Origin: Candidatus Dormiibacterota bacterium
GTDB lineage: Bacteria > Chloroflexota > Dormibacteria > Aeolococcales > Aeolococcaceae
Assembly: GCA_036495095.1 (NCBI GenBank)
Contig: DASXNK010000085.1
Span: 1-46,353 of the forward strand
Reading direction: 5' to 3'
Length of the DNA stretch: 46,353 nt
The translations under genes were made by a program, and so were the position numbers. Below, in pieces: positions 3,731-46,353 of this stretch (its first letter is position 1; the number at the start of each line of letters is the position of its first letter). The notes below the pieces were generated by a model that was given only the letters and a program-made list of their open reading frames with translations, was not told the DNA's origin and did not search any database.

Positions 3731-4480
3731 ATGGTGAGGCTCTGCGTCCTTTCGGACATCCACGGCAATCTCCACGCGCTCGAGGCGGTGCTGGAGGACG
3801 TCCGCAGCGCCGGCGGCGACATGCTGGTGGTCGCCGGCGACCTGGTGCACCAGGGGCCGCGACCGGCCGAGACCGTCGACCTGCTGCGCAGCCTCGACGG
3901 CAGCGGCCTCGGCGCCGTGCACATGATCCGGGGCAACACCGACCGCCACGTCCTCGGCGAGCCGCCGCCGCCGCCCCCGGGCCCCGACGCCGCCGGGCGG
4001 GGGGCCGGGGTGGAGTGGACTCGGGCGCAGCTCGGCGAGGAGCGGCTGAGCTGGCTGGCCTCCCTGCCCGCCGAGCTGGTGGTCGGCGGGAGGCTGGTGG
4101 TGCACGGCTCGCCCCGGGCCGACGACCACGGCATCTGGCCGGAGACCCCGGTGGCGGACTTCGACAGCCCGCTCTGGGCCGACCTGCTGCTCTGCGGCCA
4201 CACCCACCACTCCATGCACCGCCGCGAGGGGCGGCGTCACATCGTCAACGGAGGCAGCGTGGCCTGGCCGCTGGACGGCGATCCCCGCCCCGGGTACGCG
4301 GTGGTCGAGGAGGCGGAGAGCGGCGCCGAGGGGGTGCGGGTCGAGCTGCGCCGGGTCGAGTACGACCGCGCCCGCACCGTCGCCGAGCTCGAGGAGCGGC
4401 GCGTCCCCCGGCGGGAGGTGGTGCGGCGCTACATCGAGACCGCCACCTGGCGCACCCGGACCGAGGAGCCGGTGCGATGA
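3731..4480 (+). CDS. Calcineurin-like metallophosphoesterase (YfcE/MJ0936-type)
   Basis: 249 aa. All metal-binding motifs of the family are present: SDIHGN (Asp9, His11), GDLVHQGP (Asp37), GNTDRH (Asn69, Asp71), VVHGSPR and CGHTHH. A metal-dependent phosphodiesterase or nucleotidase activity is therefore expected in the cytoplasm. The ATG at 3731 is preceded by GGGGG. The gene overlaps sat by 4 bp (ATGA at 4477-4480), so it is translationally coupled to sulfate adenylyltransferase and is the first gene of the sat-apr-qmo operon. The substrate is unknown; the location makes adenine nucleotide by-products such as APS or dinucleotides worth testing, which is inference only. The family is broad, so a housekeeping role is also possible. 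Confidence 0.85.
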
Positions 4481-5679
4481 GCCTGGTCAGGCCGCACGGC
4501 CCGGCGCGGCGCCTCCAGCCGCTGCTGGTGCCCCCGGCGGAGCGCGAGGCCGAGATCGCCCGCGCCGGCTCGCTGCGGCGGCTGCCGATGACCTCGCGGG
4601 AGACCTCCGACCTGCTCATGCTCGGCATCGGCGCCTTCACGCCGCTGCGCGGCTTCATGGGCGCCGCGGACTGGGGGACCGTCTGCGACCAGATGCGCCT
4701 GGCCGACGGCACCTTCTGGCCCATCCCCATCACCCTCTCGGCGACCGACGAGCAGGCCTCCGCCCTCGCCCCCGACGAGGAGGTGGCGCTGGTCGACGGC
4801 GAGAGCGGAGAGCTGCTGGGCACGCTGCGGGTGGAGGAGCGGTACGCCATCGACCGGCTCCACGAGTGCCGCGAGGTCTTCCGCACCGTCGATCCCCAGC
4901 ATCCCGGCGTCGCCAAGGTGCTGGAGCAGGGCCCGGTGAACCTCGCGGGACCGGTCCGCGTGCTCGGAGAGGGGCAATTCCCGGAGCGCTACCCGGACAT
5001 CTACCTGCGGCCGCACCAGACCCGGGCCCTCTTCGAGTCCCGGGGCTGGTCGACGGTGGCCGCCTTCCAGACCCGCAACCCGATGCACCGCGCCCACGAG
5101 TACCTCGCCAAGGTCGCCATCGAGGTGTGCGACGGCCTGCTCGTCCACCAGCTGCTGGGACGGCTGAAGGCGGGCGACATCCCCGCCGAGGTGCGGGTGC
5201 GCTGCATCGACGCGCTCGTCGAGGGCTACTTCGTGCCCGGCACCTGCGTCCAGGCCGGCTACCCGATGGAGATGCGCTACGCCGGCCCGCGGGAGGCGCT
5301 GCTGCATGCGGTGTTCCGCCAGAACTACGGCTGCAGCCACCTGGTGATCGGACGTGACCACGCCGGCGTCGGCAGCTACTACGGCCCCCTCGACGCCCAG
5401 CGGATCTTCGACGAGCTCCCCGCCGGCGCCCTCGAGCTGCGGCCGCTGAAGATCGACTGGACCTTCTTCTGCTCCGGGTGCGACGGCATGGCCTCGGCGA
5501 GGACGTGCCCCCACGGACCCGAGCAGCGCCTGCTCATCAGCGGCACCCGGGTGCGCGAGATGCTCGCCTCGGGCGAGGCCGTCGACGAGCACTTCAGCCG
5601 TCCGGAGGTCCTGGCGATCCTCCGCGAGTACTACTCCGGGCTCGACGCGAGGGTCGAGGCCGGGCTCCACTCCCACTGA
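4477..5679 (+). CDS. sat: Sulfate adenylyltransferase (dissimilatory-type ATP sulfurylase)
   Basis: 400 aa, the normal length of single-chain Sat. It catalyses APS + PPi = ATP + sulfate, and in sulfur oxidisers runs in the ATP-forming direction. The N-terminal PUA-like domain (about 1-180) is followed by the catalytic domain with [11 protein letters not shown] (198-208), [12 protein letters not shown] (292-303) and [10 protein letters not shown] (354-363). A Cys cluster (C332, C335, C344, with H346) resembles the zinc site of the Thermus/Archaeoglobus-type enzymes. There is no APS-kinase domain, so this is not a fused assimilatory form. It is coupled to the upstream phosphoesterase and followed after 9 nt by aprB, the standard sat-aprBA order of Chlorobium and sulfate reducers. 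Confidence 0.95.
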
Positions 5680-5688
5680 GGACCAAGC

Positions 5689-6159
5689 GTGCCCACCTAT
5701 GTCAACCCGGACAAGTGCGACGGCTGCAAGGCGCTCGACAAACCGGCGTGCGCGTACATCTGTCCCAACGACCTGATGATCCTCGACATGGTGCAGGGCA
5801 AGTCCTTCAACCAGGAGCCCGACCAGTGCTGGGAGTGCTACTCCTGCGTCAAGGTCTGCCCCCAGTCGGCGATCGCGATGCGCGGCTACAGCGACGTGAT
5901 GCCGCTCGGCGCCAGCCTGACGCCGCTGCGCGGCACCGACTCGATCATGTGGACGGTGCAGTTCCGCGACAAGCGGGTGAAGCGGTTCAAGTTCCCGATC
6001 CGGTCCACCGCCTGGGGGACCATCGAGCCGTACGAGGGGATGCCCGCGCCCGACTCCGCGCGGCTCGGCGATCCCCACCTGTGCGGCGAGGACGCCTGGC
6101 TGGGGGTCGACACCCTGCCCGTCCCCGCCGAGGCCGCGACCGCCGGGCCGAGGGGGTAG
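5689..6159 (+). CDS. aprB: Adenylylsulfate reductase, beta (iron-sulfur) subunit
   Basis: 156 aa with a GTG start. Two [4Fe-4S] sites are formed by Cys10, 13, 21, 25 (CDGCKALDKPACAYIC) and Cys47, 50, 53, 57 (CWECYSCVKVC). The long insertion inside the first motif is the hallmark of AprB. The C-terminal tail (from about residue 85: DSIMWTVQFRDKRVKRFKFP) is the arm that wraps around AprA in known structures. The subunit carries electrons between the AprA flavin and the Qmo complex. It lies 4 nt upstream of aprA and 9 nt downstream of sat. It appears complete; no substituted ligands were seen. Confidence 0.95.
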   Translation: MPTYVNPDKCDGCKALDKPACAYICPNDLMILDMVQGKSFNQEPDQCWECYSCVKVCPQSAIAMRGYSDVMPLGASLTPLRGTDSIMWTVQFRDKRVKRFKFPIRSTAWGTIEPYEGMPAPDSARLGDPHLCGEDAWLGVDTLPVPAEAATAGPRG

Positions 6160-6163
6160 AGAG

Positions 6164-8029
6164 ATGGAGGCGCCCGCGCTGGAGGTGGTCGACACCGACC
6201 TGCTGATCCTCGGCGGTGGCATGGCGGGCTGCGGCGCCGCCTTCGAGGCCGGCTACTGGGGCCGCGACAAGGGCCTCCGGGTGACCCTGGTCGAGAAGGC
6301 GGCGGTGGAGCGGAGCGGCGCGGTGGCCATGGGCCTCAGCGCGATCAACTGCTACATGGGGATGCGGCACGGCGAGAACCAGCCCGAGGACTTCGTGCGC
6401 TACGTGCGCAACGACCTGATGGGCCTCTGCCGCGAGGACCTCGTCTACGACATCGCGCGCCACGTCGACTCGACCGTCCACATGTTCGAGAAGTGGGGCC
6501 TGCCGATCTTCAAGACCGAGGACGGGCGCTACAAGCGCGAGGGCCGCTGGCAGATCATGATCCACGGCGAGTCCTACAAGCCGATCGTCGCCGAGGCGGC
6601 GAAGAAGGCGATCGGGGCGGAGAACGTCTACGAGCGCCTCTTCGTCTCCCACGTGCTCACCGACGAGGCCACCGGGCGGGCGACCGGCGCGGTCGCGTTC
6701 AGCGTCCGCGAGCACAAGGTCTACGTCTTCCGGGCGCGGGCGGTGATCTCCAGCGCCGGGGGCGCCACCGGCGTGTTCCGTCCCCATGCGGTGGGGGAGG
6801 GTCTGGGGCGGATCTGGTACGCCCCCTGGAACACGGGGTCGGCGTACTCGCTGGCGATCAAGGCCGGCGCCACCATGACCCAGATGGAGCACCGGCTGGT
6901 GGTCACCCGCTTCAAGGACGGGTACGGGCCGGTGGGGATGTGGTTCCTGCTCTTCAAGGGGAAGGTGAAGAACGCCTACGGCGAGCTCTACGAGGACACC
7001 CAGCAGAAGGCGATCGCCCCCTACGCGCCCTACGACAAGGTGCGGCCGATCCCCACGCCGCTGCGCAACCACCAGATGCTCACCGACCGCGCCGAGGGCA
7101 GGGGCCCGCACTACATGCGCACCGACGAGGCCCTGCAGGCGCTCACCATGGGGCTCGACCCCAAGGCGGTGCGCGAGATCGAGAGCGACGCCTGGGAGGA
7201 CTTCCTCGACATGACGATGTCCCAGGCGCTGCTCTGGGCGTCGCAGAACATCGACCCCGCCAAGGTCCCCTCGGAGCTCACCCTCACCGAGCCCTACCTG
7301 ATGGGCTCGCACTCGTCGGCGACCGGCGCCTGGGTGAGCGGTCCCGAGGACCTCGCCCGCGACGGCTACTTCTGGGGCTACAACCGCATGACCACGGTGC
7401 CGGGGCTCTTCGCCGCCGGGGACGGCGTCGGCGGCTCGGCGCACAAGTTCTCCTCGGGCTCGTACACCGAGGGACGGCTGGCCGCCAAGGGCGCGATCTC
7501 GTACATGACCGACAACCCCGGCAGCTTCGAGCACGACCCCGCCCGGGTGGAGGAGATCACCGGCGAGCTGTTCCAGCCCTACCGGGTCTTCGAGGAGGCG
7601 CACGGCTCCTCCACGAAGGAGGACATCAACCCGAACTACTTCTATCCGAAGCAGGGTCTCCACCGGCTGCAGAAGATCATGGACGAGTACTGCGCCGGGG
7701 TTGGGGCCAACTACATCACCAACGAGCCGACCCTGCGCCGCGGCATGGAGCTGATGGAGGTCTTCAAGGAGGACATGGCGAAGGTCGCCGCCCGCGACCG
7801 CCACGAGCTGCTGCGCTGCTGGGAGCTGCGCGACCGCATCTGGTGCGCCGAGGCCCACATGCGCCACATCCTCCACCGCGAGGAGACCCGCTGGCCCGGC
7901 TACTACTACCGGATGGACCATCCGAAGATCGACGACGAGAACTGGAAGGTGTTCGTCAACTCACGGTTCGACGCCGGCAACGGCGGGTGGAAGATGTCGA
8001 CTCATCCCTGCCACACCCTGGTGCCGTGA
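6164..8029 (+). CDS. aprA: Adenylylsulfate reductase, alpha (flavin) subunit
   Basis: 621 aa, the usual AprA length. It interconverts APS and sulfite + AMP using FAD. The N-terminal Rossmann motif is TDLLILGGGMAGCGAAFEAG (11-30). Other family features include KAAVERSGAVAMGLSAINCY, an active-site region around MEHRLVVTRFKDGYGPVGMW, and GSHSSATGAWVSGPED with the histidine conserved in AprA. The C-terminal portion (EEAHGSSTKEDINPNYFYPK, YYRMDHPKIDDENW) is also typical. The gene follows aprB by 4 nt and overlaps qmoA by 4 bp (GTGA), so stoichiometric expression with the electron-transfer partners is likely. Whether the enzyme is of the oxidising or reducing phylogenetic branch needs a tree; the operon context favours oxidation of sulfite. 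Confidence 0.95.
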   Translation: MEAPALEVVDTDLLILGGGMAGCGAAFEAGYWGRDKGLRVTLVEKAAVERSGAVAMGLSAINCYMGMRHGENQPEDFVRYVRNDLMGLCREDLVYDIARHVDSTVHMFEKWGLPIFKTEDGRYKREGRWQIMIHGESYKPIVAEAAKKAIGAENVYERLFVSHVLTDEATGRATGAVAFSVREHKVYVFRARAVISSAGGATGVFRPHAVGEGLGRIWYAPWNTGSAYSLAIKAGATMTQMEHRLVVTRFKDGYGPVGMWFLLFKGKVKNAYGELYEDTQQKAIAPYAPYDKVRPIPTPLRNHQMLTDRAEGRGPHYMRTDEALQALTMGLDPKAVREIESDAWEDFLDMTMSQALLWASQNIDPAKVPSELTLTEPYLMGSHSSATGAWVSGPEDLARDGYFWGYNRMTTVPGLFAAGDGVGGSAHKFSSGSYTEGRLAAKGAISYMTDNPGSFEHDPARVEEITGELFQPYRVFEEAHGSSTKEDINPNYFYPKQGLHRLQKIMDEYCAGVGANYITNEPTLRRGMELMEVFKEDMAKVAARDRHELLRCWELRDRIWCAEAHMRHILHREETRWPGYYYRMDHPKIDDENWKVFVNSRFDAGNGGWKMSTHPCHTLVP

Positions 8030-9363
8030 GCAGCGTCGCCGAGGTCGCGGCCGGGCCGGACGTCTCCGGCTCGGGCCACGACGCCGTCCTCGTCGTGGGC
8101 GGCGGGATCGCGGGGATCACCGCCGCCCTCGAGGCCGCCGAGGCGGGGATGTCCGTCTACCTGGTCGAGCGCGCCCCCCAGCTCGGCGGCCGGGTGGCGC
8201 AGCTGGCCCGGTACTTCCCCAAGCTCTGCCCCCCCACCTGCGGGCTGGAGATCAACTACCAGCGGCTGCGCGACAACCGCGCCGTCCGCCTGCTCACCAC
8301 CACCGAGGTGGAGTCGATCTCGGGAGGGCCGGGCGCGTACGCGGTGCGGCTGCGGGTCGAGCCGCGCTTCGTCACCGACCGCTGCACGATGTGCAACGCC
8401 TGCGCCGAGGTCTGCCCCGTCGACCGGCCCAACGCCTTCGACTACGGGATGAGCACCACCAAAACGGCCTACCTGCCCCACGAGGCCGCCTACCCGGCGA
8501 GGTACGCGATCGACGCCTCGACCTGCCTCTTCGACGAGTGCGCGAAATGCGTCGACGCCTGCGCCTACGGGGCCATCGACCTCCACATGCAGCCCGAGAT
8601 CGTGGAGCTGCGGGTGGGCGCGGTGATCATCGCCACCGGCTGGCGCCCCTACGACGCCCGGGCGATCACCAATCTCGCCTTCGGCCACTCGCCCAACGTG
8701 ATCACCAACGTGATGATGGAGCGGATGGCGGCGGAGAGCGGACCGACCGGGGGCCGCATCGTCCGCCCCTCCGACGGCGCACCGGTGCGCAGCGTCGCCT
8801 TCATCCAGTGCGCCGGGTCGCGCGACCGTCTCCACCTGCGCTACTGCTCGAGCATCTGCTGTCTCGCATCGCTGAAGGAGGCGAGCCTGGTGCTCGATCG
8901 GAACCCCGACGCCCAGGTGCACGTCTTCTACATCGACCTGCGCACCCCGGGCACCTACGAGGCCTTCGCCGCGGGGGTGCTCGGCCATCCCCAGGTGCAC
9001 GCGGTCAAGGGCAAGGTCGCCGACATCCTCGAGGACCCCGCGACCGGCGAGCTCGTCGTCGTCGCCGACGACATGGTCGGGGCGGGGATGAGCCGCACCC
9101 GTGTCGACCTCGTCGTGCTCGCGACCGGGATGGCGCCGAGCCTCGGCGACGCCCCCACCGCCGGCGTCGACCTCGACGAGGACGGCTTCGTCGTCGAGGG
9201 AACCGACGCCGATGGCATCCTCGTCGCCGGCTGCGCCCGCGCCCCGGTCGACGTCGCCACCGCCACCGTCGACGCCACCGCGGCGGCGATGCGCGCGATC
9301 GCCCTGGTGCGGCGCAGCCCGGCGGGGGTGAGCGGGGGCGTCCCCCGCCGGAGGGAGAGCTGA
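8026..9363 (+). CDS. qmoA: QmoA/HdrA-like FAD and iron-sulfur protein
   Basis: 445 aa, GTG start overlapping the aprA stop. The FAD-binding motif AVLVVGGGIAGITAALEAAE starts at about residue 20 and is followed by GGRVAQLARYFPKLCPPTC, an HdrA-type signature with Cys68 and Cys72. Two ferredoxin-like sites are C120/123/126/130 (CTMCNACAEVC) and C167/172/175/179. The protein belongs to the HdrA family and in Qmo complexes accepts or donates electrons next to AprBA. Its place between aprA and qmoB and its length identify QmoA rather than a methanogen-type HdrA, which is longer. It should form a cytoplasmic complex with the next two products. Confidence 0.9.
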   Translation: MSSVAEVAAGPDVSGSGHDAVLVVGGGIAGITAALEAAEAGMSVYLVERAPQLGGRVAQLARYFPKLCPPTCGLEINYQRLRDNRAVRLLTTTEVESISGGPGAYAVRLRVEPRFVTDRCTMCNACAEVCPVDRPNAFDYGMSTTKTAYLPHEAAYPARYAIDASTCLFDECAKCVDACAYGAIDLHMQPEIVELRVGAVIIATGWRPYDARAITNLAFGHSPNVITNVMMERMAAESGPTGGRIVRPSDGAPVRSVAFIQCAGSRDRLHLRYCSSICCLASLKEASLVLDRNPDAQVHVFYIDLRTPGTYEAFAAGVLGHPQVHAVKGKVADILEDPATGELVVVADDMVGAGMSRTRVDLVVLATGMAPSLGDAPTAGVDLDEDGFVVEGTDADGILVAGCARAPVDVATATVDATAAAMRAIALVRRSPAGVSGGVPRRRES

Positions 9364-9365
9364 CG

Positions 9366-11513
9366 ATGGCGGCGCGGAAGACGGGCGTCTACGTCTGCGA
9401 GGGCTGCGGCATCGGCGAGTGCGTGAGCAGCGCGGCGCTGCTCGAGAGCGCCGCCGGCGAGGCCGGGGTCGCGGTGACCCGCACCTCACGGGCGTTCTGC
9501 CTCGAGGACTCGGCGCGGATCCGCGAGGACATCGAGAGCGAGGGGCTGGAGGCGGTCGTCATCGCCGCCTGCTCGCCGCGGGTCAACCGGCAGGTGTTCG
9601 ACCTCCGGCCGGCGATGGTGCGGCGGGTCAACCTCCGCGAGCACGTCGCCTGGAGCCAGGCGCCGCAGGACGAGGCCACCCAGGAGCTGGCCGACGACCT
9701 GCTGCGGATGGGGATCGCCGCCGCGCAGCACACCACCCCCCCGGTGGCCCGCATCGAGGACTGCGAGCGCCGCGTGCTCGTCGTCGGCGCCGGGCCGGCG
9801 GGGTTGAGCGCCGCGCTCAGCGCCGCCGAGGGTGGCTACGCGGTGACCCTGGTGGAGCGCGAGGCAGAGGCCGGCGGCTTCCTCCGCCGCCTCCACCGCG
9901 GCTGGGCGGCCCGCGGGTCGCTCGAGCCGGTCGACGTCGACGGCCTCGTCGCCCGGGTGCTCGACCACCCCTCGGTCACCCTGCGGACGGGCACCACCGT
10001 CGGCGGCGTCGAGGGCCAGCCGGGGCGGTTCGTGGCGACTCTCGAGGGCCCCGACGGCGCCGAGACCGTCGAGGCCGGCTCGGTGGTGATGGCCACCGGT
10101 TTCGAGCCGGTCGCCGCCGCGAGCTTCGCCGCCTACGGGCTCGGCGAGAACCCCGACGTCATCTCCTCGGTGGAGATGGAGGACCTCTGCCGCGGCGGCG
10201 GGCTGCTCCGCCCCTCCGACGGCCGGCCGGCGCGACGGGTGGCCATCCTCGCCTGCGACGGCCCTGCCGACACCGCCAACCTCCCCTACACCGGCAACGT
10301 CACCAGCATGACCGCGCTGAAGCAGGCGATGTACGTCCGCGAGCGCGATCCGGAGGCCGAGGTCTACCTGGTCTACGAGGACATGCAGACCCCGGGGCGC
10401 GACGAGCTGTACTACCGGCGGGTCCAGGAGGACCACGGCGTCTTCCTGATCCGCGGTCAGGTGCGCGCGGTCGAGCCGGCCGGGATGAACGGCGACGCCC
10501 ACCTGCGGGTGACCGCGCGGAACACCGTGCTCGCCGGCGACGTCACCCTCGAGGCCGACCTGGTCGTCGTCCAGCAGGGCATGGTGCCGGCCTCGGCGCT
10601 GCCGGCGGGGAGCGCGGCGCTCTCGCTCGGCTACCTCCAGGGCGGCGCGATGCCGACCGGCCGGGCCGGCTTCGCCGACTCGAACTTCCTCTGCTTCCCC
10701 TACGAGACCCGCCGCACCGGCATCTACTCGGCGGGCTGCGTCCACCGCGCCCAGGACATCGGCCAGAGCCGCCGCGACGGCGCCGCCGCCGCCCTCAAGG
10801 CGATCCAGGTGGTGGAGAAGGCGGCGTCCGGGCAGGCGGTGCACCCCCGGGTCGGCGAGCTCGGCTACCCGCAGTTCCTGATGAGCCGCTGCACCGCGTG
10901 CGGCCGGTGCACCCAGGAGTGCCCGTTCGGCGCCCTCGAGCTCGACGCTCTGCGCCACCCGGAGATCAACACCAACCGCTGCCGCCGCTGCGGCATCTGC
11001 ATGGGCGCGTGCCCGGTGCAGGTGATCTCGTTCCCCGACTACTCGGTGGAGCAGATCTCGGCGATGCAGAAGGTCATCAGCCTTCCCGAGGATGACGAGG
11101 ACCGGCTGCGCGTCCTGGTCTTCGCGTGCGAGAACGATGCCTACCCCGCGCTCGACATGGCGGGCATCAACCGGCTGCGGCTGCCGGTCGAGCTCCGGGT
11201 GGTCCCGGTGCGCTGCCTCGGCTCGGTGAACGCCGTGGTGGTCGCCGACGCGGTCCAGCGCGGCTTCGACGGCGTCGCCCTGCTCGGCTGCCGGTCGGGC
11301 CCCGACTACCAGTGCCACTTCATCCAGGGCAGCGAGCTGCTCGGCAAGCGCATGGACAACGTGCGCGAGACCCTGGGGCGGCTGGCCCTGGAGGAGGAGC
11401 GGGTGCAGGTGCTCGAGACCTCGATCGCCGACGCCCGCCGGCTGCCGGGGGTGCTCGGGGGCTTCGTCGAGCAGATCCGCGCGCTCGGCGCCAACCCGAT
11501 GAAGGGGTTCTGA
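9366..11513 (+). CDS. qmoB: QmoB: HdrA-like flavoprotein fused to MvhD domain
   Basis: 715 aa. Domain order: an N-terminal Cys-rich HdrA segment (CEGCGIGEC, Cys11/14/19, then AACSPRVNRQ), an FAD domain (RVLVVGAGPAGLSAALSAAE near residue 138), two [4Fe-4S] ferredoxin motifs (CTACGRCTQEC and CRRCGICMGAC, about 507-548) and a C-terminal MvhD/FlpD-like domain (RVLVFACENDAYPALDMAGI, then DGVALLGCRSGPDYQCHFIQ). This architecture and length are those of QmoB. The start codon lies 2 nt after the qmoA stop. It probably links QmoA to the HdrCB-like third subunit. No odd residues were seen in the cluster motifs. Confidence 0.92.
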   Translation: MAARKTGVYVCEGCGIGECVSSAALLESAAGEAGVAVTRTSRAFCLEDSARIREDIESEGLEAVVIAACSPRVNRQVFDLRPAMVRRVNLREHVAWSQAPQDEATQELADDLLRMGIAAAQHTTPPVARIEDCERRVLVVGAGPAGLSAALSAAEGGYAVTLVEREAEAGGFLRRLHRGWAARGSLEPVDVDGLVARVLDHPSVTLRTGTTVGGVEGQPGRFVATLEGPDGAETVEAGSVVMATGFEPVAAASFAAYGLGENPDVISSVEMEDLCRGGGLLRPSDGRPARRVAILACDGPADTANLPYTGNVTSMTALKQAMYVRERDPEAEVYLVYEDMQTPGRDELYYRRVQEDHGVFLIRGQVRAVEPAGMNGDAHLRVTARNTVLAGDVTLEADLVVVQQGMVPASALPAGSAALSLGYLQGGAMPTGRAGFADSNFLCFPYETRRTGIYSAGCVHRAQDIGQSRRDGAAAALKAIQVVEKAASGQAVHPRVGELGYPQFLMSRCTACGRCTQECPFGALELDALRHPEINTNRCRRCGICMGACPVQVISFPDYSVEQISAMQKVISLPEDDEDRLRVLVFACENDAYPALDMAGINRLRLPVELRVVPVRCLGSVNAVVVADAVQRGFDGVALLGCRSGPDYQCHFIQGSELLGKRMDNVRETLGRLALEEERVQVLETSIADARRLPGVLGGFVEQIRALGANPMKGF

Positions 11514-11515
11514 GC

Positions 11516-12727
11516 ATGAGCACCGTGGAACGCCCGGCGCCCGCCCCCATGGCCCTGCGTCCCGACGGCGGGTTCCTGCGCGACCTGATCGAGCGCGCCG
11601 GCGACTCCTTCAAGCGCTGCTACCAGTGCGGCACCTGCTCGGTGGTCTGCCCCTTCGCGTTCGCGGGCACCGGGCTGCCCCGGCAGGAGATGGCGCTGGC
11701 GCAGTGGGGGCTGAAGGACGCGCTGCTCGACAGCCCCAACCTCTGGCTGTGCACCACCTGCGGAAACTGCGCGCGGCTCTGCCCCCGCGAGGTCGACATC
11801 CCCGGCACCATCCGGGCGGCGCGCGAGCTCCAGGTGCTCGAGCGGGGCACCACCCCCGAGCTCACCACCGCGTTCGAGAACACCAGCCGCCACGGCAACC
11901 CGCTGGGGCTGCCGGCGCGGCGGCGGGCCGACTGGGCCGGGGGCGCCGGCGTCGCGGTGCCGGTCATCTCCAGGGATCGACGTCCGGTCGACGTGCTCCT
12001 CTGGGTCGAGTGCTACTGGGCGTACCACCCCCGCGGCAACAGTGCCGCGCAGGCGACGGCACGGATCCTCACCGCGCTCGGCGTCGACTTCGGCATCCTC
12101 GGCGTCGAGGAGCGCTGCGTCGCCGACTCCCAGCGGCTCGCCGGCGAGACCGGCATCTTCGAGGAGGCGGCGGAGCGGAACCTCGAGACCCTGCGCGGCC
12201 ACGAGTTCTCGATGCTCGTCACCCCGGATCCCCACGCGTACAACGCCTTCCGCAACCTCTACCCGGCGCTCAACGGCGGCGTCGCCCTGCCCGTCCAGCA
12301 CTACACCCAGTTCCTGGCGGGACGGATCGGCGATCTCGAGCTCCGGCCGGTGGCGCCGCGGCGGGTCACGTTCCACGACCCCTGCTACCTGGGACGTCAC
12401 AACGGCGAGTTCGAGTCGCCGCGCCGGCTGATCGAGGCCATCCCCGGGCTGACCCTGACGGAGATGGCCCACTGCCGGGCCAACGGCTACTGCTGCGGCG
12501 GCGGCGGCGGCGGGATGTGGAACAGCTCGTTCGTCAGGGAGCACGCCGAGGAGCGGCTCGCCGAGGTGCGGGTTCGCGAGGCGGTCGCCACCGGCGCCGA
12601 GGTGCTGGCGGTGTGCTGCCCGTTCGAGGTGTCGCTGTTCGAGGATGCGGTGAAGAGCACGGGCAACGAGGGGGCCCTGCTGGTGCGGGACATCGCGGAA
12701 CTGCTGGACGAGTCGCTCGCAGGCTGA
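11516..12727 (+). CDS. Soluble HdrC-HdrB fusion in the position of qmoC
   Basis: 403 aa. The N-terminal HdrC-like part carries two [4Fe-4S] motifs (CYQCGTCSVVC and CTTCGNCARLC). The C-terminal HdrB-like part has a degenerate first CCG domain (VECYWAYHP ... EERCVADSQRLAGETG) and a fuller second one (FHDPCYLGRHNGEF ... GYCCGGGGGGMW ... VCCPFE). Classical QmoC fuses HdrC to a cytochrome b-like HdrE membrane domain; here there is no hydrophobic segment and the catalytic-type HdrB module replaces it. Gram-positive sulfate reducers are known to have separate hdrBC genes after qmoAB, and this looks like the fused counterpart. The start is 2 nt after qmoB. Electrons could therefore go to a soluble thiol/disulfide or other carrier instead of directly to quinone. 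Confidence 0.85.
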   Translation: MSTVERPAPAPMALRPDGGFLRDLIERAGDSFKRCYQCGTCSVVCPFAFAGTGLPRQEMALAQWGLKDALLDSPNLWLCTTCGNCARLCPREVDIPGTIRAARELQVLERGTTPELTTAFENTSRHGNPLGLPARRRADWAGGAGVAVPVISRDRRPVDVLLWVECYWAYHPRGNSAAQATARILTALGVDFGILGVEERCVADSQRLAGETGIFEEAAERNLETLRGHEFSMLVTPDPHAYNAFRNLYPALNGGVALPVQHYTQFLAGRIGDLELRPVAPRRVTFHDPCYLGRHNGEFESPRRLIEAIPGLTLTEMAHCRANGYCCGGGGGGMWNSSFVREHAEERLAEVRVREAVATGAEVLAVCCPFEVSLFEDAVKSTGNEGALLVRDIAELLDESLAG

Positions 12728-21412: not shown

Positions 21413-21426
21413 CAGGAGAAGCGAAC

Positions 21427-21849: not shown

Positions 21850-21855
21850 GCAGGG

Positions 21856-34292: not shown

Positions 34293-34355
34293 CGCCGACC
34301 TCCGTTGATGACGGGTTCGGCGGGGATTGTGCGCCGCCGGCACGGGTCGACCACG

Positions 34356-35369
34356 ATGCGGCTGCTGGACCTGGGCACGGTGCCCTGGATCCGCTCGCAG
34401 AGCGTCCACCACGCCGTCGCCGCCTGCTTCGGCGAGGACAGCCCCGACACCGTGGTGCTGGTGCGGCCCGACCGCTCCTACCTCTGCGTCGGCCAGCATG
34501 CCCTCGGCCCGGCGCCCTCGCCCGCGGCGCTCCGCCGCATCGGCCTGCCGGTGGTGCGCCGCCGGCTGGGCGGGGGCACCGTGCTGATCACCCCGGCGCA
34601 GACCTTCTACGTGCTCGTGGTCCACCGCCGCCGCCTCCCGCTGCCCGACGCCGGGGCGTTGCGCTGGTGCCTCGGCCCCGCGGTGGCCGCCTACGCCCGG
34701 CTCGGCGTGCCCGCGGAGGTCGGCCCCGGGACCGACGTCACCGGGACGGGTCGCAAGCTCTGCGGCAGCGGCGCCGCCAGCGTGGGCGAGGCCTCGGTCT
34801 TCGGCGGCAACGTGCTCGCCGACTTCGACCCCGACCTCTTCCTCGCGGCGCTGCGCCTGCCCTCGGGGGCGGTACGCCGGCTGATGGCGGAGGAGCTGCG
34901 CGCCCAGATGGGATCGGTGCGTCAGGCCACCGGCGCCGTCCCCGGAGCCGGCGCGGTGGCGGTGGCGCTGCGGGAGGCCGTCGAGGAGGCGTGCCAGACC
35001 CGGCTGCTCCCCGGCCACCTCACCGCCGCGGAGACGGCCGCCCTGCCCGGGGTGGAGCGCTGGCTGCGCCGCGTCCCCGGGGGCGCGCCGGCGGCGGCCT
35101 CCGGCTGCTGGAAGGTGCGCGCCGGCTGCGGCCTGGTCCGGGTGGTGCTGAGCCGGCCGCGGCGGGTCGTGGTGCTGGTGACGGTGCGCGGCGGGGCCGT
35201 GGCCGGGGTGACCGCCGAGCGCCCCGAGGGCCGCGCCGCCGCCGCCCGGCTCGCCGCCGTCCTCGAGGGCCGGCGGCTCGATGCCCCGCTGCCGCCCGGT
35301 GCGGTGGACCCGGAGGCGGCGGTCGCGGTCGGCGCCGCCCTCGCCGCCGCCCGCCGGCTCTTCGGGTAG
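34356..35369 (+). CDS. Lipoate-protein ligase A / BPL-LplA family protein
   Basis: 337 aa. The catalytic fold is visible in VVRRRLGGGTVLITPAQTFY (67-86, the RRxxGGG motif) and TGRKLCGSGAASVGE, whose Lys134 corresponds to the conserved catalytic lysine, followed by VFGGNVLADFDPDLF. It should activate or transfer lipoate or octanoate to a carrier. No lipoyl-domain protein is visible in the window. sHdr sulfur-oxidation systems depend on a lipoate-binding protein and dedicated LplA-like ligases, so with the hdr genes at 44.8 kb this is a candidate for that role, though a housekeeping enzyme is equally possible. ATG 34308 is an alternative start. The C-terminal 110 residues are less conserved. 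Confidence 0.8.
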   Translation: MRLLDLGTVPWIRSQSVHHAVAACFGEDSPDTVVLVRPDRSYLCVGQHALGPAPSPAALRRIGLPVVRRRLGGGTVLITPAQTFYVLVVHRRRLPLPDAGALRWCLGPAVAAYARLGVPAEVGPGTDVTGTGRKLCGSGAASVGEASVFGGNVLADFDPDLFLAALRLPSGAVRRLMAEELRAQMGSVRQATGAVPGAGAVAVALREAVEEACQTRLLPGHLTAAETAALPGVERWLRRVPGGAPAAASGCWKVRAGCGLVRVVLSRPRRVVVLVTVRGGAVAGVTAERPEGRAAAARLAAVLEGRRLDAPLPPGAVDPEAAVAVGAALAAARRLFG

Positions 35370-40190: not shown

Positions 40191-41058
40191 GGCCCGCGGG
40201 GTCGGGGTCCGCTACGGCGGGGTCCAGGCCCTCGACGGGGTGACCTGCGGGGTCGACGCCGGCGAGATCGCCGCGGTCATCGGCCCCAACGGGGCGGGCA
40301 AGACCACCCTGCTCAACGTCATCAGCGGCCTGACCCCGGTGCAGCGGGGGGAGGTGCTCTTCGAGGGCCGCGACCTGGCCCCCCACAGCGCCCACCGCCG
40401 CGCCCGGCTGGGGCTGGCCCGCACCCTCCAGGGCGTCGACCTCTTCGAGGGGCTCACGGTGCGTGAGAACCTGATGCTGATGGCCCGGATCAGCGAGAGC
40501 AGCCGGCGGCCGGGCACGGCCACGGCCCCGGCGGCCGAGCGGGTGACCGCCGCCGCCGGCTTCCTCGGCGTCGAGGACGAGCTCGAGCGGCAGGTGACCG
40601 ACCTGCCCGGCGGCCGGCAGCGGCTCGTCGACATCGCCGCCGCGCTCTGCCTGCGGCCGCGCTGCCTGCTCCTCGACGAGCCCGCGGCCGGTGCCGGCCC
40701 GTCGGAGTCGGCCTCCCTCGGCCGGCTGCTGCTGCGGATCCGCGAGGTGCTCGGGCTCGGCATCCTGCTGGTCGAGCACGACGTCCAGATGGTGCTCGAC
40801 ATCGCCGACTACATCTACGTGCTCGACTTCGGGCGGCTGATCGCCGAGGGCACCCCCGCGGAGATCCGGCGCGACCCGGTGGTGATCGCCGCCTACCTCG
40901 GCCGCGAGGCCGGCGAGCCGCTCCCCGCCGTCACCGCCGCCCCCGCCCCGGCCGCAGCGGCGTCCGCGCCGGTCGCGGACCGTCCGGGCCCGCGCCCGCC
41001 GGGGCCGGAGTGGGGGTCGCCCGAGGCTCTCCGGGGAGGCGGCGGTGCTTCGCGCTGA
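40177..41058 (+). CDS. livG: LivG-type ABC transporter ATPase
   Basis: 293 aa. Walker A is VIGPNGAGKTTLL (about 35-47), the Q-loop region follows, and Walker B is CLLLDEPAAGAGPSE with the switch His in LLVEHDVQMV. The ABC signature is altered to LPGGRQRLVDIAAAL in place of the canonical LSxGxQ, so ATP hydrolysis at one of the two sites may be weakened. A 45-residue Ala/Pro-rich tail follows the conserved C-terminus (AAYLGRE). The livF start lies inside its 3' end (14-bp overlap). Confidence 0.92.
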   Translation: MFLLEARGVGVRYGGVQALDGVTCGVDAGEIAAVIGPNGAGKTTLLNVISGLTPVQRGEVLFEGRDLAPHSAHRRARLGLARTLQGVDLFEGLTVRENLMLMARISESSRRPGTATAPAAERVTAAAGFLGVEDELERQVTDLPGGRQRLVDIAAALCLRPRCLLLDEPAAGAGPSESASLGRLLLRIREVLGLGILLVEHDVQMVLDIADYIYVLDFGRLIAEGTPAEIRRDPVVIAAYLGREAGEPLPAVTAAPAPAAAASAPVADRPGPRPPGPEWGSPEALRGGGGASR

Positions 41059-42022
41059 GCGGCTGGAGGTCGCCTACGGCGGCGTGATCGCGCTCCAGGA
41101 GTGCAGCCTCGAGGTCGGCGTGGGCGAGTGCCTCGCCGTCCTCGGCGCCAACGGGGCGGGCAAGAGCACGCTGCTGCGGACCCTCGCCCGTGGCATCCGC
41201 CAGCGCAGCGGCCACCTCTGGTGGGACGGCACCCGGATCGACCGCTGGGCCGCCGACCGCGCCGCCCGCCACGGCATCGCCCTGGTGCCGGAGGGGCGGC
41301 GGCTGTTCGGCGGGCTCACGGTGCGTGAGAACCTGCTGGTGGGCGCCGCCCCCCTGCCGCAGCCGGAGGCGGCGGGCCGCCTCGCCGAGGTGCTGGGCTG
41401 GTTCCCCGAGCTCGGCCAGCGCCTCGACGTCGCCGCCGGCCGGCTCAGCGGCGGCGAGCAGCAGATGGCCGGGATCGGCCGCGCCCTGATGGGCCGGCCC
41501 CGCCTCCTGCTGGTCGACGAGCTGTCGCTGGGGCTGGCGCCGCTGGTCACCCGCCGGATCTACGAGATCCTCGGCCGGATCGCCGCCGGCGGCATCGCCG
41601 TCGTCCTCGTCGAGCAGTACACCGATCTCGCCCTCGCCGCCGCCGGCCGTGCCCTGGTCCTGGAGAAGGGCCGGGTCGCCTTCAGCGGCACCGCCGACGA
41701 GCTGCGCCGCAGGCCGGAGCTGCTCGAGAACGCATACTTGGGCCGCGAGCTGCTGGCGCGGGCGCCCGAGGGGGCGCGCAGTGGCGAGCCTGCGGTGGCG
41801 GGAGGCCGCCGCTCGGGGACGCGAGGCGCGGGGGATGGCCGGCGGTGGCCGGCGGTGGCCGAGGTGCTGCTCCACCTCGAGGCGCCGGAGAAGCGGCGCA
41901 TCGAGGAGCAGGCCCGGGCCGCCGGCGTGGACGTCGACGAGTGGATCCGGCGGATGATCCGGGGGTCGGGGGAGGCCCCCCACATCGGGCGTCAGCGCCC
42001 GGAGCAGAGGGAGACGTGGTGA
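41045..42022 (+). CDS. livF: LivF-type ABC transporter ATPase with C-terminal extension
   Basis: 325 aa, GTG start. Walker A VLGANGAGKSTLL, canonical signature LSGGEQQMAGIGRALM, Walker B LLLVDELSLGLAP and VLVEQYTDLAL are intact. Standard LivF proteins end near AYLGRE, here about residue 235. The additional ~85 residues contain a low-complexity linker and a compact segment (EVLLHLEAPEKRRIEEQARA, then GVDVDEWIRRMIRGSG) that resembles a ribbon-helix-helix or small coiled module. The stop overlaps the next start (ATGA-type at 42020-42024). Confidence 0.9.
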   Translation: MLRAERLEVAYGGVIALQECSLEVGVGECLAVLGANGAGKSTLLRTLARGIRQRSGHLWWDGTRIDRWAADRAARHGIALVPEGRRLFGGLTVRENLLVGAAPLPQPEAAGRLAEVLGWFPELGQRLDVAAGRLSGGEQQMAGIGRALMGRPRLLLVDELSLGLAPLVTRRIYEILGRIAAGGIAVVLVEQYTDLALAAAGRALVLEKGRVAFSGTADELRRRPELLENAYLGRELLARAPEGARSGEPAVAGGRRSGTRGAGDGRRWPAVAEVLLHLEAPEKRRIEEQARAAGVDVDEWIRRMIRGSGEAPHIGRQRPEQRETW

Positions 42023-43758
42023 TGGCCCGCAGAGGACTGACCGCACTGTCCGGGGGGGTCGGCCTGGCCGGCCTCGCGCTCGCCGCCGCCACCGTGCTCG
42101 CGCCCACCGGGGCGCTCGCCGGGTATCAGCCCGACCTCCGACCCACCCCGGTGGCGGCGCCGCCGAGCGTCATCGCCTACAGCGGCAGCAGCGCCGGCCT
42201 CGAGTTCCACCTCGTCCCCGGCCAGTACCACCCCACCTTCGACCAGGCCTTCGTCGAGTCCTTCCCCTACGCCGCGACCTCGGCGGACAGCAACCCGTCG
42301 GCGACGGCGACGGCGACCCCCGCCGAGCTCGGGCTGTTCCTCGACAACTACCCGACGGCGGCGTGCCTGATCAGCACCTTCTCGCCCTACTGCGACCAGA
42401 TCCAGAAATTCCCGGTCGACGCCTTCTTCGCCCGGGCCACGTCGGACAGCGCCAAGTCCCGCGACGCCCGCACCGCCTTCCCCTGCGAGCCCGGGGCGGC
42501 GCAGCCGAAGTCGGTGGCGCTGGCCCCGCCGGCGTGCCCCCAGGCGCCGCCGAGGCAGATCACCCTGGGTGACGGGGTCGCCCACGCCGACGCCACCCCC
42601 GACGCCAGCGCCGAGGCGCACCTCGCCGCCTTCGACGTCTCACCTCCGACCCAGGCGCAGCCGGGCTACCTGGCGCGGCTGCGGCAGGCCCGGGCGCTGC
42701 TCGCCTACTTCCACCGTCCCACCGCGGGTGTCGACCGCGCGATCGCCTCGTCGTCGATCCTGGGCACCTCCGGGGTCACCACCCTGTCCCAGTTCCACTC
42801 CGGCTCGGACGGCATCCCCCGGGCCCACAACCAGGTGGTGTTCGGGAGCATCGACGCCCTCGGCGGCACCGTCCACGCCGACGGCCTGGTGCTCGACCTC
42901 GCCGCCGCCACCCTGGGGCAGGCGAAGCCGCCGGTGCGAGCCGAGCAGACCCGCTTCCTCCACCTCACCGTCATGGGCAAGGACTACGGCGACGTCGACA
43001 GCTCCAACTGCAACCAGGTCGCCAGCCAGATCAACACCGCCGCACCGAGCATGGTGCCCGGCGGCCAGCAGTTCAGCCTCGGCGCCTTCGGCTTCCGGCT
43101 CAGCTGCTCGGTGGTGAGCTCGAGCGTGGTCACCGACCCGGCGAAGGGGTTCGGGCTCAACCCCGTCGCCCAGGAGCTGACCGGGCCGGGGCTCGACTTC
43201 GTCCAGCTGCAGAACCCGCTCGACTACCTCCAGGCCGCCGGGTTGCCGATCCCCCAGGCCTGCTATCCGGGGAGCAACCTGCCCCCGCCGCCGGCGCTGC
43301 CCGCCGCCCCCAAGCCGGTGCCGCCGCCTCCCGGACCGACCTCGACCTGCCAGTTCGCCTCCACCAACTCCTTCGCGAACAACGGCTTCAGCCTCCACCT
43401 CGGCCACGCGGTGCAGAGCCTCGCCGCCCAGCCGCCGGTCCCCGACCTGGGGCTCCTCCCCGGCACCGGCAGCCTCGGCGGCGACGGCCTCGGCGGCGGC
43501 CTGACCATCGGGTCGGGGCTCGACTTCGGCAGCACCGGGGGGGGCGGCGCCGCCTCCGGCTTCGGGGCGACCCACGCGCCCGCCGGGCTGGTGCCGGGGA
43601 GCGTGGCGACGGTGCCGGCGCCGGCCCTGGTGCTCGCCGGGGTGCCGTACCGCGACTGGCTGGTGTTCGGCTACGGCGCCTGGGGCTGTGCGGTGCTCGC
43701 CGCCCTCTGCCTCTGGGGGCTGGCAATCCACCGCCGGCGGCTCAGCGGGCTGCTCTGA
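42022..43758 (+). CDS. Large secreted, C-terminally anchored protein of unknown function
   Basis: 578 aa. An N-terminal signal peptide (GLAGLALAAATVLAPTGALA) and a C-terminal transmembrane helix (GYGAWGCAVLAALCLWGLAI) followed by Arg-rich residues give a surface-anchored topology. The exterior part has several Cys (ACLISTFSPYC, FPCEPG, APPACP, SSNCNQ, LSCSV), a Pro-rich stretch near 430-450 and a Gly-rich repeat region near 490-520. I do not recognise the fold. The ATG at 42022 (GTG 42019 is an alternative) has GAGGGAG 8 nt upstream. It ends with the next gene's ATG overlapping its stop. It is co-transcribed with the liv genes, so it may be an accessory of that transporter. Confidence 0.7.
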   Translation: MARRGLTALSGGVGLAGLALAAATVLAPTGALAGYQPDLRPTPVAAPPSVIAYSGSSAGLEFHLVPGQYHPTFDQAFVESFPYAATSADSNPSATATATPAELGLFLDNYPTAACLISTFSPYCDQIQKFPVDAFFARATSDSAKSRDARTAFPCEPGAAQPKSVALAPPACPQAPPRQITLGDGVAHADATPDASAEAHLAAFDVSPPTQAQPGYLARLRQARALLAYFHRPTAGVDRAIASSSILGTSGVTTLSQFHSGSDGIPRAHNQVVFGSIDALGGTVHADGLVLDLAAATLGQAKPPVRAEQTRFLHLTVMGKDYGDVDSSNCNQVASQINTAAPSMVPGGQQFSLGAFGFRLSCSVVSSSVVTDPAKGFGLNPVAQELTGPGLDFVQLQNPLDYLQAAGLPIPQACYPGSNLPPPPALPAAPKPVPPPPGPTSTCQFASTNSFANNGFSLHLGHAVQSLAAQPPVPDLGLLPGTGSLGGDGLGGGLTIGSGLDFGSTGGGGAASGFGATHAPAGLVPGSVATVPAPALVLAGVPYRDWLVFGYGAWGCAVLAALCLWGLAIHRRRLSGLL

Positions 43759-44033
43759 TGTCCGCCAGAGCAGCGGGGCTGGTGGCTCCGATCCTTCAGC
43801 TGCTGCGCGGCCTGCGGCTGCCGCAGCGCCGTCCCCCGAGCGCCTGCCCGCGCTGCGCCACCCCGGTGCGGGTGGGCCTCAGCGCCTGCCCGCTCTGCGG
43901 CGAGGTGATGGCCGCCGCCCTCGACAGCCGGCTGGCGGTCTGGCGGCGCCGCGGCCTGCTCGAGGTCTCGGTGGTCGCGGTGGTGCTGCTGGTCTTCCTG
44001 GTCTGCTTCCTCATCGTCGTCTCCCACCGGTAG
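43758..44033 (+). CDS. Small zinc-ribbon single-pass membrane protein
   Basis: 91 aa. Two CxxC pairs (CPRCATPVRV and CPLCGEVM, about 30-50) form a zinc ribbon in the cytoplasmic N-terminal half, followed by a transmembrane helix near the C-terminus (VSVVAVVLLVFLVCFLIVV). The start overlaps the preceding stop by 1 bp. It is the last gene of the liv-type operon, 103 bp before tusA. Function unknown; conserved small zinc-ribbon membrane proteins often serve as regulators or assembly factors. Confidence 0.75.
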   Translation: MSARAAGLVAPILQLLRGLRLPQRRPPSACPRCATPVRVGLSACPLCGEVMAAALDSRLAVWRRRGLLEVSVVAVVLLVFLVCFLIVVSHR

Positions 44034-44045
44034 CGGGGTGCGGGG

Positions 44046-44063
44046 TCCCCCGCCTCCGGGGGA
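44046..44063. other. Hairpin between the liv operon and the tusA operon
   Basis: A 7-bp perfect stem (44046-44052 with 44057-44063, 4-nt loop) sits 13 nt after the zinc-ribbon stop. It is followed by an A-run, not a T-run, on the plus strand, so it is at best a weak terminator. A possible -10 for tusA (AATACT, 44107-44112) lies downstream. Confidence 0.4.
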
Positions 44064-44136
44064 AAATCACCCGGGCCGGGGGACGACATCGCCATCGTCC
44101 GCGGCGAATACTGCGACCAGCGAGGAGGACATCTCT

Positions 44137-44376
44137 GTGGGTTCCGAGACGGCCGACGTCACGCTCGACTGCCTGGGCAAGCTGTGCCCCATCCCCGTCA
44201 TCGAGGTGTCGAAGGCGGTGCGAAGGATGGATTCGGGACAGACCCTGCTCATGCTCGCCGACGATCCGGGCAGCGACCCCGACATGCACGCGTGGTGTGA
44301 CGAGACGGGCAACGAGCTCGTCCGCATGGAGAAGGACGGCAGGGTCTACAAGTTCTGGATCCGCCGGGAGGGCTGA
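44137..44376 (+). CDS. tusA: TusA sulfur-carrier protein
   Basis: 79 aa, GTG start with AGGAGG 8 nt upstream; upstream in-frame codons give an unrelated-looking extension. The signature VTLDCLGKLCPIPVIEVSKA contains the sulfur-accepting Cys17 in the CPxP motif, with Cys12 before it. TusA carries persulfide sulfur between enzymes; in sulfur oxidisers it hands sulfane sulfur to sHdr or Dsr. It is the first gene of a four-gene overlapping unit tusA-dsrE-hdrC-hdrB, whose order supports the dissimilatory rather than the tRNA-thiolation role. Confidence 0.93.
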   Translation: MGSETADVTLDCLGKLCPIPVIEVSKAVRRMDSGQTLLMLADDPGSDPDMHAWCDETGNELVRMEKDGRVYKFWIRREG

Positions 44377-44768
44377 TGCCCATGGCCGACGACGACGAGA
44401 ACAAGCGCGTCGTCTACGTGCAGTCGAGCGGGGTGGACACCCCGCAGCGTGCCGCCACCCCGTTCTTCCTCGCCGCCACCGCGGCGGCGATGGAGTGGGA
44501 CGTGAAGATCTACTTCACGATCAACGGCCCGACCCTGCTGAAGAAGGGGGTCGCCGAGACCCTCTACGTCAAGAAGGACGGCACCGGGGCGCCGCTCAGC
44601 CACTTCATCGACCAGGCCCGCGACCTCGGCGTCGAGCTGCTCTGCTGCCAGCCCAGCCTCGACCTCAACGGCCTCGACTACGAGGAGCTGATCGACGGCG
44701 TGAAGATGATCGGGGGCGCGGCGTTCAACAGCCTGGCGGCGAAGGCATCGGCGGTGGTCTGCTTCTGA
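44376..44768 (+). CDS. DsrE-family sulfurtransferase
   Basis: 130 aa. The DsrE/DsrF-like fold is indicated by RVVYVQSSGVDTPQRAATPF, the hydrophobic AAAMEWDVKIYFTINGPTLL and the strand LGVELLCCQPSLDLNGL with the Cys90-Cys91 pair, followed by GVKMIGGAAFNSLA. Members next to TusA and Hdr accept persulfide from a rhodanese and pass it on; the vicinal Cys near residue 90 is the probable acceptor. Which DsrE subgroup it belongs to needs a tree. The ATG at 44376 overlaps the tusA stop; a second ATG at 44382 is possible. The stop overlaps hdrC. Confidence 0.88.
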   Translation: MPMADDDENKRVVYVQSSGVDTPQRAATPFFLAATAAAMEWDVKIYFTINGPTLLKKGVAETLYVKKDGTGAPLSHFIDQARDLGVELLCCQPSLDLNGLDYEELIDGVKMIGGAAFNSLAAKASAVVCF

Positions 44769-45454
44769 TGACCGTCCCGGTCGCGCCCCAGGCGACGCCG
44801 GAGCTCAAGGCCGAGATCTTCGCCAAGGTCGTGGCCGACACCCGTTTCCACGACTACGTCCACGGCTGCTACGAGTGCGGCATCTGCGTGGCCGCCTGCC
44901 CCTCCGCGCGGTTCTACGACTTCAGCCCGCGGAAGATCACCCAGACGGTCTGCCGGGAGGACCTGGACACCTTCTGGGAGCACGTCAACGTCGACGTCTG
45001 GAACTGCTCGCAGTGCTTCAGCTGCGACCGCTGCCCCCGGGGCAACTCGCCGGGGGGGCTGATCACGATCATGCGCGAGGTCGCCGTCACCAGCGGCCTG
45101 CGCTCTGCCAAGCAGGCGCTCGAGGGCGGCGAGCGGGTGGTCTACAAGATCATGTCGACGGGCACCCAGGTGTCCCCCGACATGCTCCAGCCCGAGGCCT
45201 TCCCCGACTGGGGGCCGGAGGTGCAGGAGGTCTCCAACAACCTGGACCTGTGGCGTCGGGCGCTGCCCCCGGAGACGCTGCACACCACCACCACCGCGTG
45301 GGAGATCAACGACGAGACCCTGGTCGAGCTGTACCTGATCTGGCACATGACCGGGGTCCTGGACATGATCAAGGCGGTGGACGAGGGCCTCCACATGATC
45401 CTCAACGACGTCATGGAAGAGCTGCTGGAGGACCACGACATTGTCGTCCCCTGA
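44768..45454 (+). CDS. hdrC: HdrC-like iron-sulfur subunit of the sHdr type
   Basis: 228 aa. Two [4Fe-4S] motifs: Cys34/37/40/44 (CYECGICVAAC) and Cys80/83/86/89 (CSQCFSCDRC). The C-terminal half continues with helices (TVELYLIWHMTGVLDMIKAV-like region near 190) not seen in a plain ferredoxin. It is an HdrC-type electron carrier subunit, and immediate neighbours tusA, dsrE and hdrB make it the sHdr form (sHdrC1) rather than a methanogenic or Qmo partner. The ATG at 44768 overlaps the DsrE stop. No transmembrane segment is present. It ends 14 bp inside the hdrB coding sequence. Confidence 0.88.
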   Translation: MTVPVAPQATPELKAEIFAKVVADTRFHDYVHGCYECGICVAACPSARFYDFSPRKITQTVCREDLDTFWEHVNVDVWNCSQCFSCDRCPRGNSPGGLITIMREVAVTSGLRSAKQALEGGERVVYKIMSTGTQVSPDMLQPEAFPDWGPEVQEVSNNLDLWRRALPPETLHTTTTAWEINDETLVELYLIWHMTGVLDMIKAVDEGLHMILNDVMEELLEDHDIVVP

Positions 45455-46353
45455 CCCGAACCGCGGCGGTCCCAGCGCTCCCTCGGCGCTGACCGCGGGC
45501 ACCATCCCGCTCGAGGTGGTCCACGCCCGCAGCTTCACCCGCAACCCCGACCTCGCCCCCATCGAGGACATCCGCGAGGAGATCCTCAAGCTGGAGGCGG
45601 AGGGCGAGTGGATCGTCCAGCGCGTGCCCGACGACCACACCGAGGTGACCACCAAGTACGGCCGGGTCAAGAAGATCCCCAACCGGCACACCTGGCATCA
45701 CAAGAGCTGCGGCCAGTGCGGCCACATCCCCGGCTACTCGACGGCGATCTTCTGGCTGAACCGCGAGCTGGGGACCGAGTACAACGACCCCCGCGACCAG
45801 ACCTCCTGCACCGCCTGGAACTACTACGCCTCGGCCACCTCGAACGCGCCCGCCCAGGCCGCGGTGGCGATGCGCAACTTCGCGGCGGCGTACGCCACCG
45901 GCTTCTACCCGGTGATCCACTGCGGCACCAGCTACGGGCACTACAAGGAGGTGCGCGAGGAGCTGGTGCGGCATCCGGAGATGCGCGCCCAGGTGCGCGA
46001 CATCCTCGCCCGGATGGGCAAGCCGCTGGTGATGCCCGAGGAGATGATCCACTACAGCGAGTGGATCCACGTGATGCGCCACGAGATCAGGAAGCGCACC
46101 GTGTTCGACCTCTCGAACATCACCTGCGTGGTCCATCCCGCCTGCCACTACTACAAGCTGGTGGCCGAGGACGCCATCTACGACGAGGAGATCTACGGCG
46201 GCCAGCGCACCGCGATCATGACCTCGCTGCTGGAGGCGCTGGGAGCGAAGGTCGCCGACTACTCGACCTGGTTCGACTGCTGCGGCTTCGGCTTCCGCCA
46301 CGTGCTGGTGCAGCGCGACTTCACCCGCTCCTTCGCGACCCTGCGGAAGATCG
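45441..46353 (+). CDS. hdrB: HdrB-like subunit of the sHdr type, truncated by window edge
   Basis: The reading frame runs open from the TTG at 45441 past the window end (about 304 codons seen). GGAGG lies 9 nt upstream of the TTG and the gene overlaps hdrC by 14 bp, so TTG is the best start. HdrB features: HKSCGQCGHIPGYSTAIFWL, TSCTAWNYY, VIHCGTSYGHYKEV, then VVHPACHYYKLVAE and FDCCGFGFRHV, the CCG-type pattern that in HdrB binds the noncubane [4Fe-4S] clusters. Spacing differs from methanogenic HdrB and resembles the sHdr subunit. The C-terminal Cys pair, if any, lies beyond the window. An hdrA-like gene is predicted next. Confidence 0.85.
   Translation, partial: MSSPDPNRGGPSAPSALTAGTIPLEVVHARSFTRNPDLAPIEDIREEILKLEAEGEWIVQRVPDDHTEVTTKYGRVKKIPNRHTWHHKSCGQCGHIPGYSTAIFWLNRELGTEYNDPRDQTSCTAWNYYASATSNAPAQAAVAMRNFAAAYATGFYPVIHCGTSYGHYKEVREELVRHPEMRAQVRDILARMGKPLVMPEEMIHYSEWIHVMRHEIRKRTVFDLSNITCVVHPACHYYKLVAEDAIYDEEIYGGQRTAIMTSLLEALGAKVADYSTWFDCCGFGFRHVLVQRDFTRSFATLRKI

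Follow-up and report, generated by a model that had tools for sequence, protein, structure and literature searches.

Among the sulfur-oxidizing Hdr-like (sHdr) systems, type I is better studied than type II, and work on Hyphomicrobium denitrificans has dealt with sulfur delivery, lipoyl-bound sulfur and sulfite as the product (PMC6067878, PMC10332631). Type II has been defined by the occurrence of shdrC1B1AHB3 along with etfAB in one syntenic cluster, while in type I systems such as that of H. denitrificans, C2 and B2 are separate and etfAB is not required (PMC11582611). The so-called Group III arrangement, in which etfBA is accompanied by two or three lbpA genes, has been reported in Actinobacteria and Firmicutes (PMC6067878), and the "hdr gene cluster II" of Sulfobacillus represents the same type of cluster with a six-TM CCG protein (PMC4378227). 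In the main text of the open-access literature searched, no description of sHdr was found for the lineage considered here.

The DNA analyzed (hereafter, the window) is a whole contig of 46,353 bp, C85, from a Chloroflexota genome of 4.4 Mb in 216 contigs. The completeness of this genome is estimated at 96.6%, and absences reported below are read against that figure. It is highly likely that the window ends with the first genes of a type II sHdr operon which oxidizes sulfane sulfur to sulfite. A sequence-only reading of this DNA had described four overlapping genes at this place, tusA-dsrE-hdrC-hdrB, and the coordinates, the overlaps (1, 1 and 14 bp) and Pfam and NCBIfam scans all agree with it. 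On the forward strand, a 103-bp gap (44034..44136), the sole sizeable one adjoining the operon and the likely site of its promoter, is followed by tusA (44137..44376, GTG start), which codes for a sulfur carrier of 79 aa (PF01206, E 3.7e-22). For this protein, pieces sharing 90-97% identity occur in a genome of the same genus, and its alignment was left out because the score threshold admitted just two relatives. The next gene, dsrE (44376..44768, forward strand, ATG start), encodes a DsrE-type sulfurtransferase of 130 aa (PF02635, E 7.2e-15; DrsE_2, PF13686, E 7.9e-19), whose closest PDB relative is 3mc3 and whose Cys91 is invariant in the alignment columns of 39 relatives. It is followed by shdrC1 (hdrC; 44768..45454, forward strand, ATG start, 228 aa; NF041779, E 1.6e-21), with eight invariant cysteine residues for two 4Fe-4S clusters, and by the 5' part of shdrB1 (hdrB; 45441..46353, forward strand; NF041780, E 1.8e-24; CCG domain, PF02754), which comprises 304 of about 414 aa.

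The TTG start codon assigned to hdrB in the same reading is supported by a GGAGG motif directly upstream and by the corresponding locus of the same-genus genome (L048, i.e. G002:C130; public record VBHE01000315.1, a Chloroflexi MAG), where the equivalent TTG is the sole start codon found ahead of the conserved core and the 14-bp overlap recurs. A later start, GTG at 45516, was considered and rejected because this relative has no start codon at that position. The 14-bp overlap of hdrC and hdrB may be a sign of strong coupling; elsewhere in the Chloroflexota, hdrB1 frequently begins just past the stop codon of hdrC1.

Cut by the end of C85, shdrB1 finishes at position 552 of another contig of the genome, C160, on which it is followed by hdrA (542-1612, 356 aa), hyp (1609-2367), shdrB3 (2370-3650, 426 aa), etfB (3654-4427), etfA (4442-5398) and a gene for an EMO-like CCG protein of 752 aa (5407-7665). 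In shdrB3, HdrC2 and HdrB2 are fused, a 4Fe-4S dicluster domain and CCG domains lying in one frame. The EMO-like protein contains two 4Fe-4S motifs and CCG domains and, from its hydrophobic N-terminal half, is taken as membrane-bound. Three lbpA genes come next (lbpA_a, 7643-8077; lbpA_b, 8091-8552; lbpA_c, 8549-8977) and then lipS2 (8974-10071), lipS1 (10068-11036) and a lipoate ligase gene (11041 to the contig end; LplA-B_cat, E 1.8e-40). LipS2 and LipS1 are best hits which score under the NCBIfam cut-offs (208 bits versus 270 and 204 bits versus 230, respectively). The end of C85 and the start of C160 thus hold an operon of 16 genes whose internal gaps never exceed 14 bp. The sequence-only reading had anticipated hdrA, further copies of hdrC and hdrB and a lipoate-binding protein downstream: hdrA and lbpA, the latter in three copies, are in place, and a second HdrC and HdrB do occur, although as the fused shdrB3 rather than as separate genes. 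Conversely, dsr genes had been named as the outcome that would speak against sHdr, and the genome yields no sulfite reductase of the dsrA type at the family threshold, its best DsrA match reaching 39 bits for a cut-off of 392.85, so that the dsrAB of an rDsr pathway is not recovered.

These features place the operon in an already known kind of system. Its membership in sHdr is near certain, and the fused shdrB3, etfBA and the EMO-like gene identify it as type II and not type I. The shdrC1-B1-A-H-B3 core and etfAB are encoded by the end of C85 and the start of C160, as they are on a single contig in L048; the short sHdrA has a FAD site and a cysteine motif; the linked LbpA_a and LbpA_b contain the lipoyl lysine and two conserved cysteines; and a dedicated lipoate assembly set (LipS1, LipS2, sLpl) is present, with the scores given above for LipS1 and LipS2. 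The presence of the genes that define type II, along with the HdrC1 tree and the match of HdrA to 6TJR described below, supports the initial interpretation of the locus as a sulfur-oxidizing sHdr operon. With the described type II systems (Group III and Sulfobacillus cluster II), it shares the core genes, the fused B3, etfBA, the membrane CCG protein, LbpA, TusA/DsrE and a lipoate ligase. In contrast to other type II clusters, it opens with tusA-dsrE, has three LbpA genes and ends directly with lipS2-lipS1-lpl; in Bacillota, tusA-dsrE is found further downstream and lipS outside the stretches read. The type I system of H. denitrificans has in common with it sHdrC1, B1, A, Hyp, LbpA, LipS1/S2 and sLpl.

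The gene content, gene order, protein families and conserved residues of the operon can be connected to a mechanism proposed largely by analogy with H. denitrificans. TusA and DsrE would carry sulfane sulfur as persulfide to a cytoplasmic sHdrC1-B1-A-Hyp-B3 complex, where the sulfur, attached to lipoyl arms that LipS1, LipS2 and lipoate ligases make on LbpA, would be oxidized to sulfite. Electrons would pass from the Fe-S and FAD subunits to EtfAB, then to the membrane CCG/b-type EMO-like protein and to the quinone pool. Sulfite may then be converted to sulfate by AprBA-QmoABC-Sat, encoded 32-40 kb upstream on C85, and CO2 would be fixed by RuBisCO, encoded between the apr/qmo genes and the sHdr operon. 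On this analogy, the operon very probably serves the intracellular oxidation of sulfur to sulfite. The arrangement predicts a full sulfur-lithoautotrophic pathway from S0 or thiosulfate to sulfate, which most relatives do not have. It also contributes a complete type II sHdr operon, accompanied on the same DNA by the Calvin cycle and by a branch from sulfite to sulfate, from a Chloroflexota lineage for which the name of the relative's record (a sample from 12-20 cm depth) suggests a soil habitat. In addition, the compact operon would be a convenient object to test electron uptake by EtfAB and the membrane protein in type II sHdr.

The origin of the sulfur can be considered in light of the upstream genes. 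A liv-type ABC transporter is encoded at 36809-42022 (a binding protein at 36809-38287, two permeases and two ATPases), and its substrate is possibly a sulfur compound. Between it and the gap preceding tusA, the region 42022-44033 encodes a 578-aa protein without Pfam match, which by eye has a signal-like N-terminus and a C-terminal membrane helix, and a zinc-ribbon-like membrane protein of 91 aa; both genes also precede tusA in the same-genus genome. Farther away, a 583-aa open frame of coding-like composition on the minus strand (30410-32161) has no Pfam or NCBIfam match. The system might serve mainly to degrade an organosulfur compound imported by the liv-type transporter, sHdr taking over the released sulfur, as the sHdr of H. 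denitrificans serves dimethylsulfide degradation (PMC6067878). We regard this alternative as unlikely: both of the genomes from this genus have livG and livF ahead of the operon, but other type II loci have no adjoining transporter genes, apart from weak single ATPase hits. As other potential sources of sulfur, a Sox system and a SoxT/YeeE importer were searched for, and neither SoxB nor SoxT/YeeE was found in the source genome (about 96.6% complete).

Returning to the oxidation of sulfane sulfur to sulfite, the next step is likely provided by sat-aprB-aprA-qmoA-qmoB-qmoC (4477..12727, forward strand). In the NCBIfam scan, sat, aprB and aprA are above the cut-offs, qmoA and qmoB are HdrA-like and qmoC is below its cut-off. 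QmoC is a short form of 392 aa with a C-terminal CCG domain in place of the usual membrane part. Among 61 relatives, sHdrC1 and AprA occur in the same six genomes and in no others, which suggests that they were gained or lost together. These genomes come from four genera in two families, and most other members of those groups have neither protein; they are partly dependent, yet common descent alone is insufficient to account for the match. Wherever more of the surrounding DNA was readable, apr or qmo adjoins the sHdr genes. In the sister family (L044-L047), the cluster is permuted to hdrB1-A-hyp-B3-etfBA-emo-lbpA-lbpA-tusA-hdrC1, with qmoC just upstream in L044, L046 and L047 and sat-aprBA downstream in L045. 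The Calvin-cycle genes (phosphoribulokinase, ribulose-phosphate epimerase, a LysR regulator, cbbL, cbbS and cbbX) are located at 12755-22899. An inheritance of sHdr and RuBisCO as a single unit was rejected on the distribution of cbbL: some relatives that lack sHdr have it, and for four of the six genomes with sHdr the search did not find it.

The direction of the pathway also has to be weighed, as enzymes of the Hdr and Etf types can in principle work both ways. The complex could run in reverse and reduce disulfides or sulfur compounds, with quinol or EtfAB as the electron source, or it could take part in sulfur disproportionation, a process proposed for some Sulfobacillus (PMC4378227), and no type II biochemistry was found in the open-access literature searched. 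This is nevertheless improbable: as no DsrA of the genome passes the family threshold, Apr and Sat most likely run towards sulfate, AprA accompanies sHdrC1 in six out of six genomes, and RuBisCO on the same contig fits the use of sulfur as electron donor.

While sulfur oxidation by sHdr is the reading retained, in the source genome itself the operon is split over two contigs. C160 was recognized in a CCG-domain search of the same genome, which gave a match at its base 7, and the final 220 bp of C85, inside hdrB, match C160:1-220 at 210 of 220 bases. The two contigs are identical over the initial 51 and the final 67 bp of this overlap, a pattern which looks like a strain bubble, that is, an unresolved strain difference. 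The 10 mismatches raised the possibility of a second copy of the locus, which was rejected because hdrC1 occurs once in the genome. The join is safe since L048 carries the whole order on one unbroken contig, from livG-livF and the two upstream genes to tusA-dsrE-hdrC1-hdrB1-hdrA-hyp-hdrB3-etfB-etfA-emo-lbpA-lbpA-lbpA-lipS2. With 10 mismatches in the overlap and an assembly as fragmented as this one, C160 might derive from another strain or a contaminant and the operon of the window itself be different; the single hdrC1 copy, the identical ends of the overlap and the unbroken order in L048, upstream genes included, make two loci or two organisms very improbable.

Relatives of HdrC1 were fetched from public genomes (n = 52; Chloroflexota, Actinomycetota, Gemmatimonadota, Bacillota and two Sulfolobales). 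A supported clade of type II (bacterial) sHdrC1 takes in the window protein in the HdrC1 tree; Sulfolobales sHdrC1 is its neighbor, and the remaining HdrC-like proteins from related genomes lie elsewhere. Grouping of HdrB or HdrC with methanogen types had been set as a refuting outcome; HdrC1 groups with sHdrC1 in this tree, and methanogens were compared outside it, by pairwise scores to solved structures (PDB). HdrC scores 43 bits against the methanogen structure and 370-498 bits against sHdrC1 of related genomes. HdrA matches over its full length 6TJR, the 349-aa HdrA-like structure from H. denitrificans (E 1.5e-84). Its match to methanogen HdrA, a protein of about 650 aa, is confined to part of the length. 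In the short HdrA of the operon, Cys168, Cys181, Cys185 and Cys186 are invariant across the 52 relatives. In HdrB1, eight cysteine positions are kept in practically all 52 relatives, and both halves lack the complete CCG motif, with five cysteines, that methanogen HdrB has, so that its chemistry is not simply readable from methanogen Hdr. Methanogen HdrABC-MvhAGD shares with the operon the HdrB and HdrC fold families and the CCG and 4Fe-4S motifs but has no LbpA and no Etf. The weak HdrB and HdrC matches to methanogen models and structures could point to an HdrABC complex like that of methanogens with Mvh, or to a relative of Qmo/Hdr lacking an LbpA function. Either is extremely improbable given an HdrA of just 356 aa with 6TJR as best solved relative, the placement of HdrC1 with sHdr, the lbpA and lip genes, the lack of an MvhD-like gene among the called genes of the operon and the existence of a separate qmoABC (8026-12727).

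Within the type II sHdr operon, the three LbpA proteins are not equivalent. LbpA_a and LbpA_b have kept the lipoyl lysine along with the N-terminal and C-terminal cysteines, while lbpA_c retains the lysine and misses both cysteines. An LbpA without the cysteine pair is found in the same locus as lipS in all four distinct loci having lipS in reach (L048, L054, L084 and L098); it adjoins the lip genes in three of them and is about 2 kb away in L098. This weakly suggests a role of the cysteine-poor LbpA in the making of the lipoyl group. In some Gram-positive bacteria, GcvH is a lipoyl relay, and lbpA_c (C160:8549-8977) might likewise be an assembly carrier of lipoyl groups instead of a substrate carrier of the sulfur-oxidizing complex, a proposal that we advance as doubtful. 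In that case, octanoate would be attached to lbpA_c, LipS2 and LipS1 would insert sulfur there, and one of two ligases would hand the finished lipoyl group over to LbpA_a and LbpA_b. In the LbpA tree, lbpA_c is found with the GcvH of the genome and other odd copies, a placement not relied on because long branches meet there.

The second lipoate-protein ligase, lpl2, is encoded in the window at 34329..35369 on the forward strand (PF21948, E 1.7e-18). It shares 32-37% identity with ligases in L044, L045, L079, L084, L090, L092 and L094, and from this kinship with ligases inside other type II clusters, lpl2 is probably an sHdr maturation gene despite its distance of 9 kb upstream of the operon. 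In L048, lbpA_a seems to shift frame near its end (near 13472-13746), where tblastn returns two pieces and the C-terminal cysteine is lost; this frame change is probably a sequencing error.
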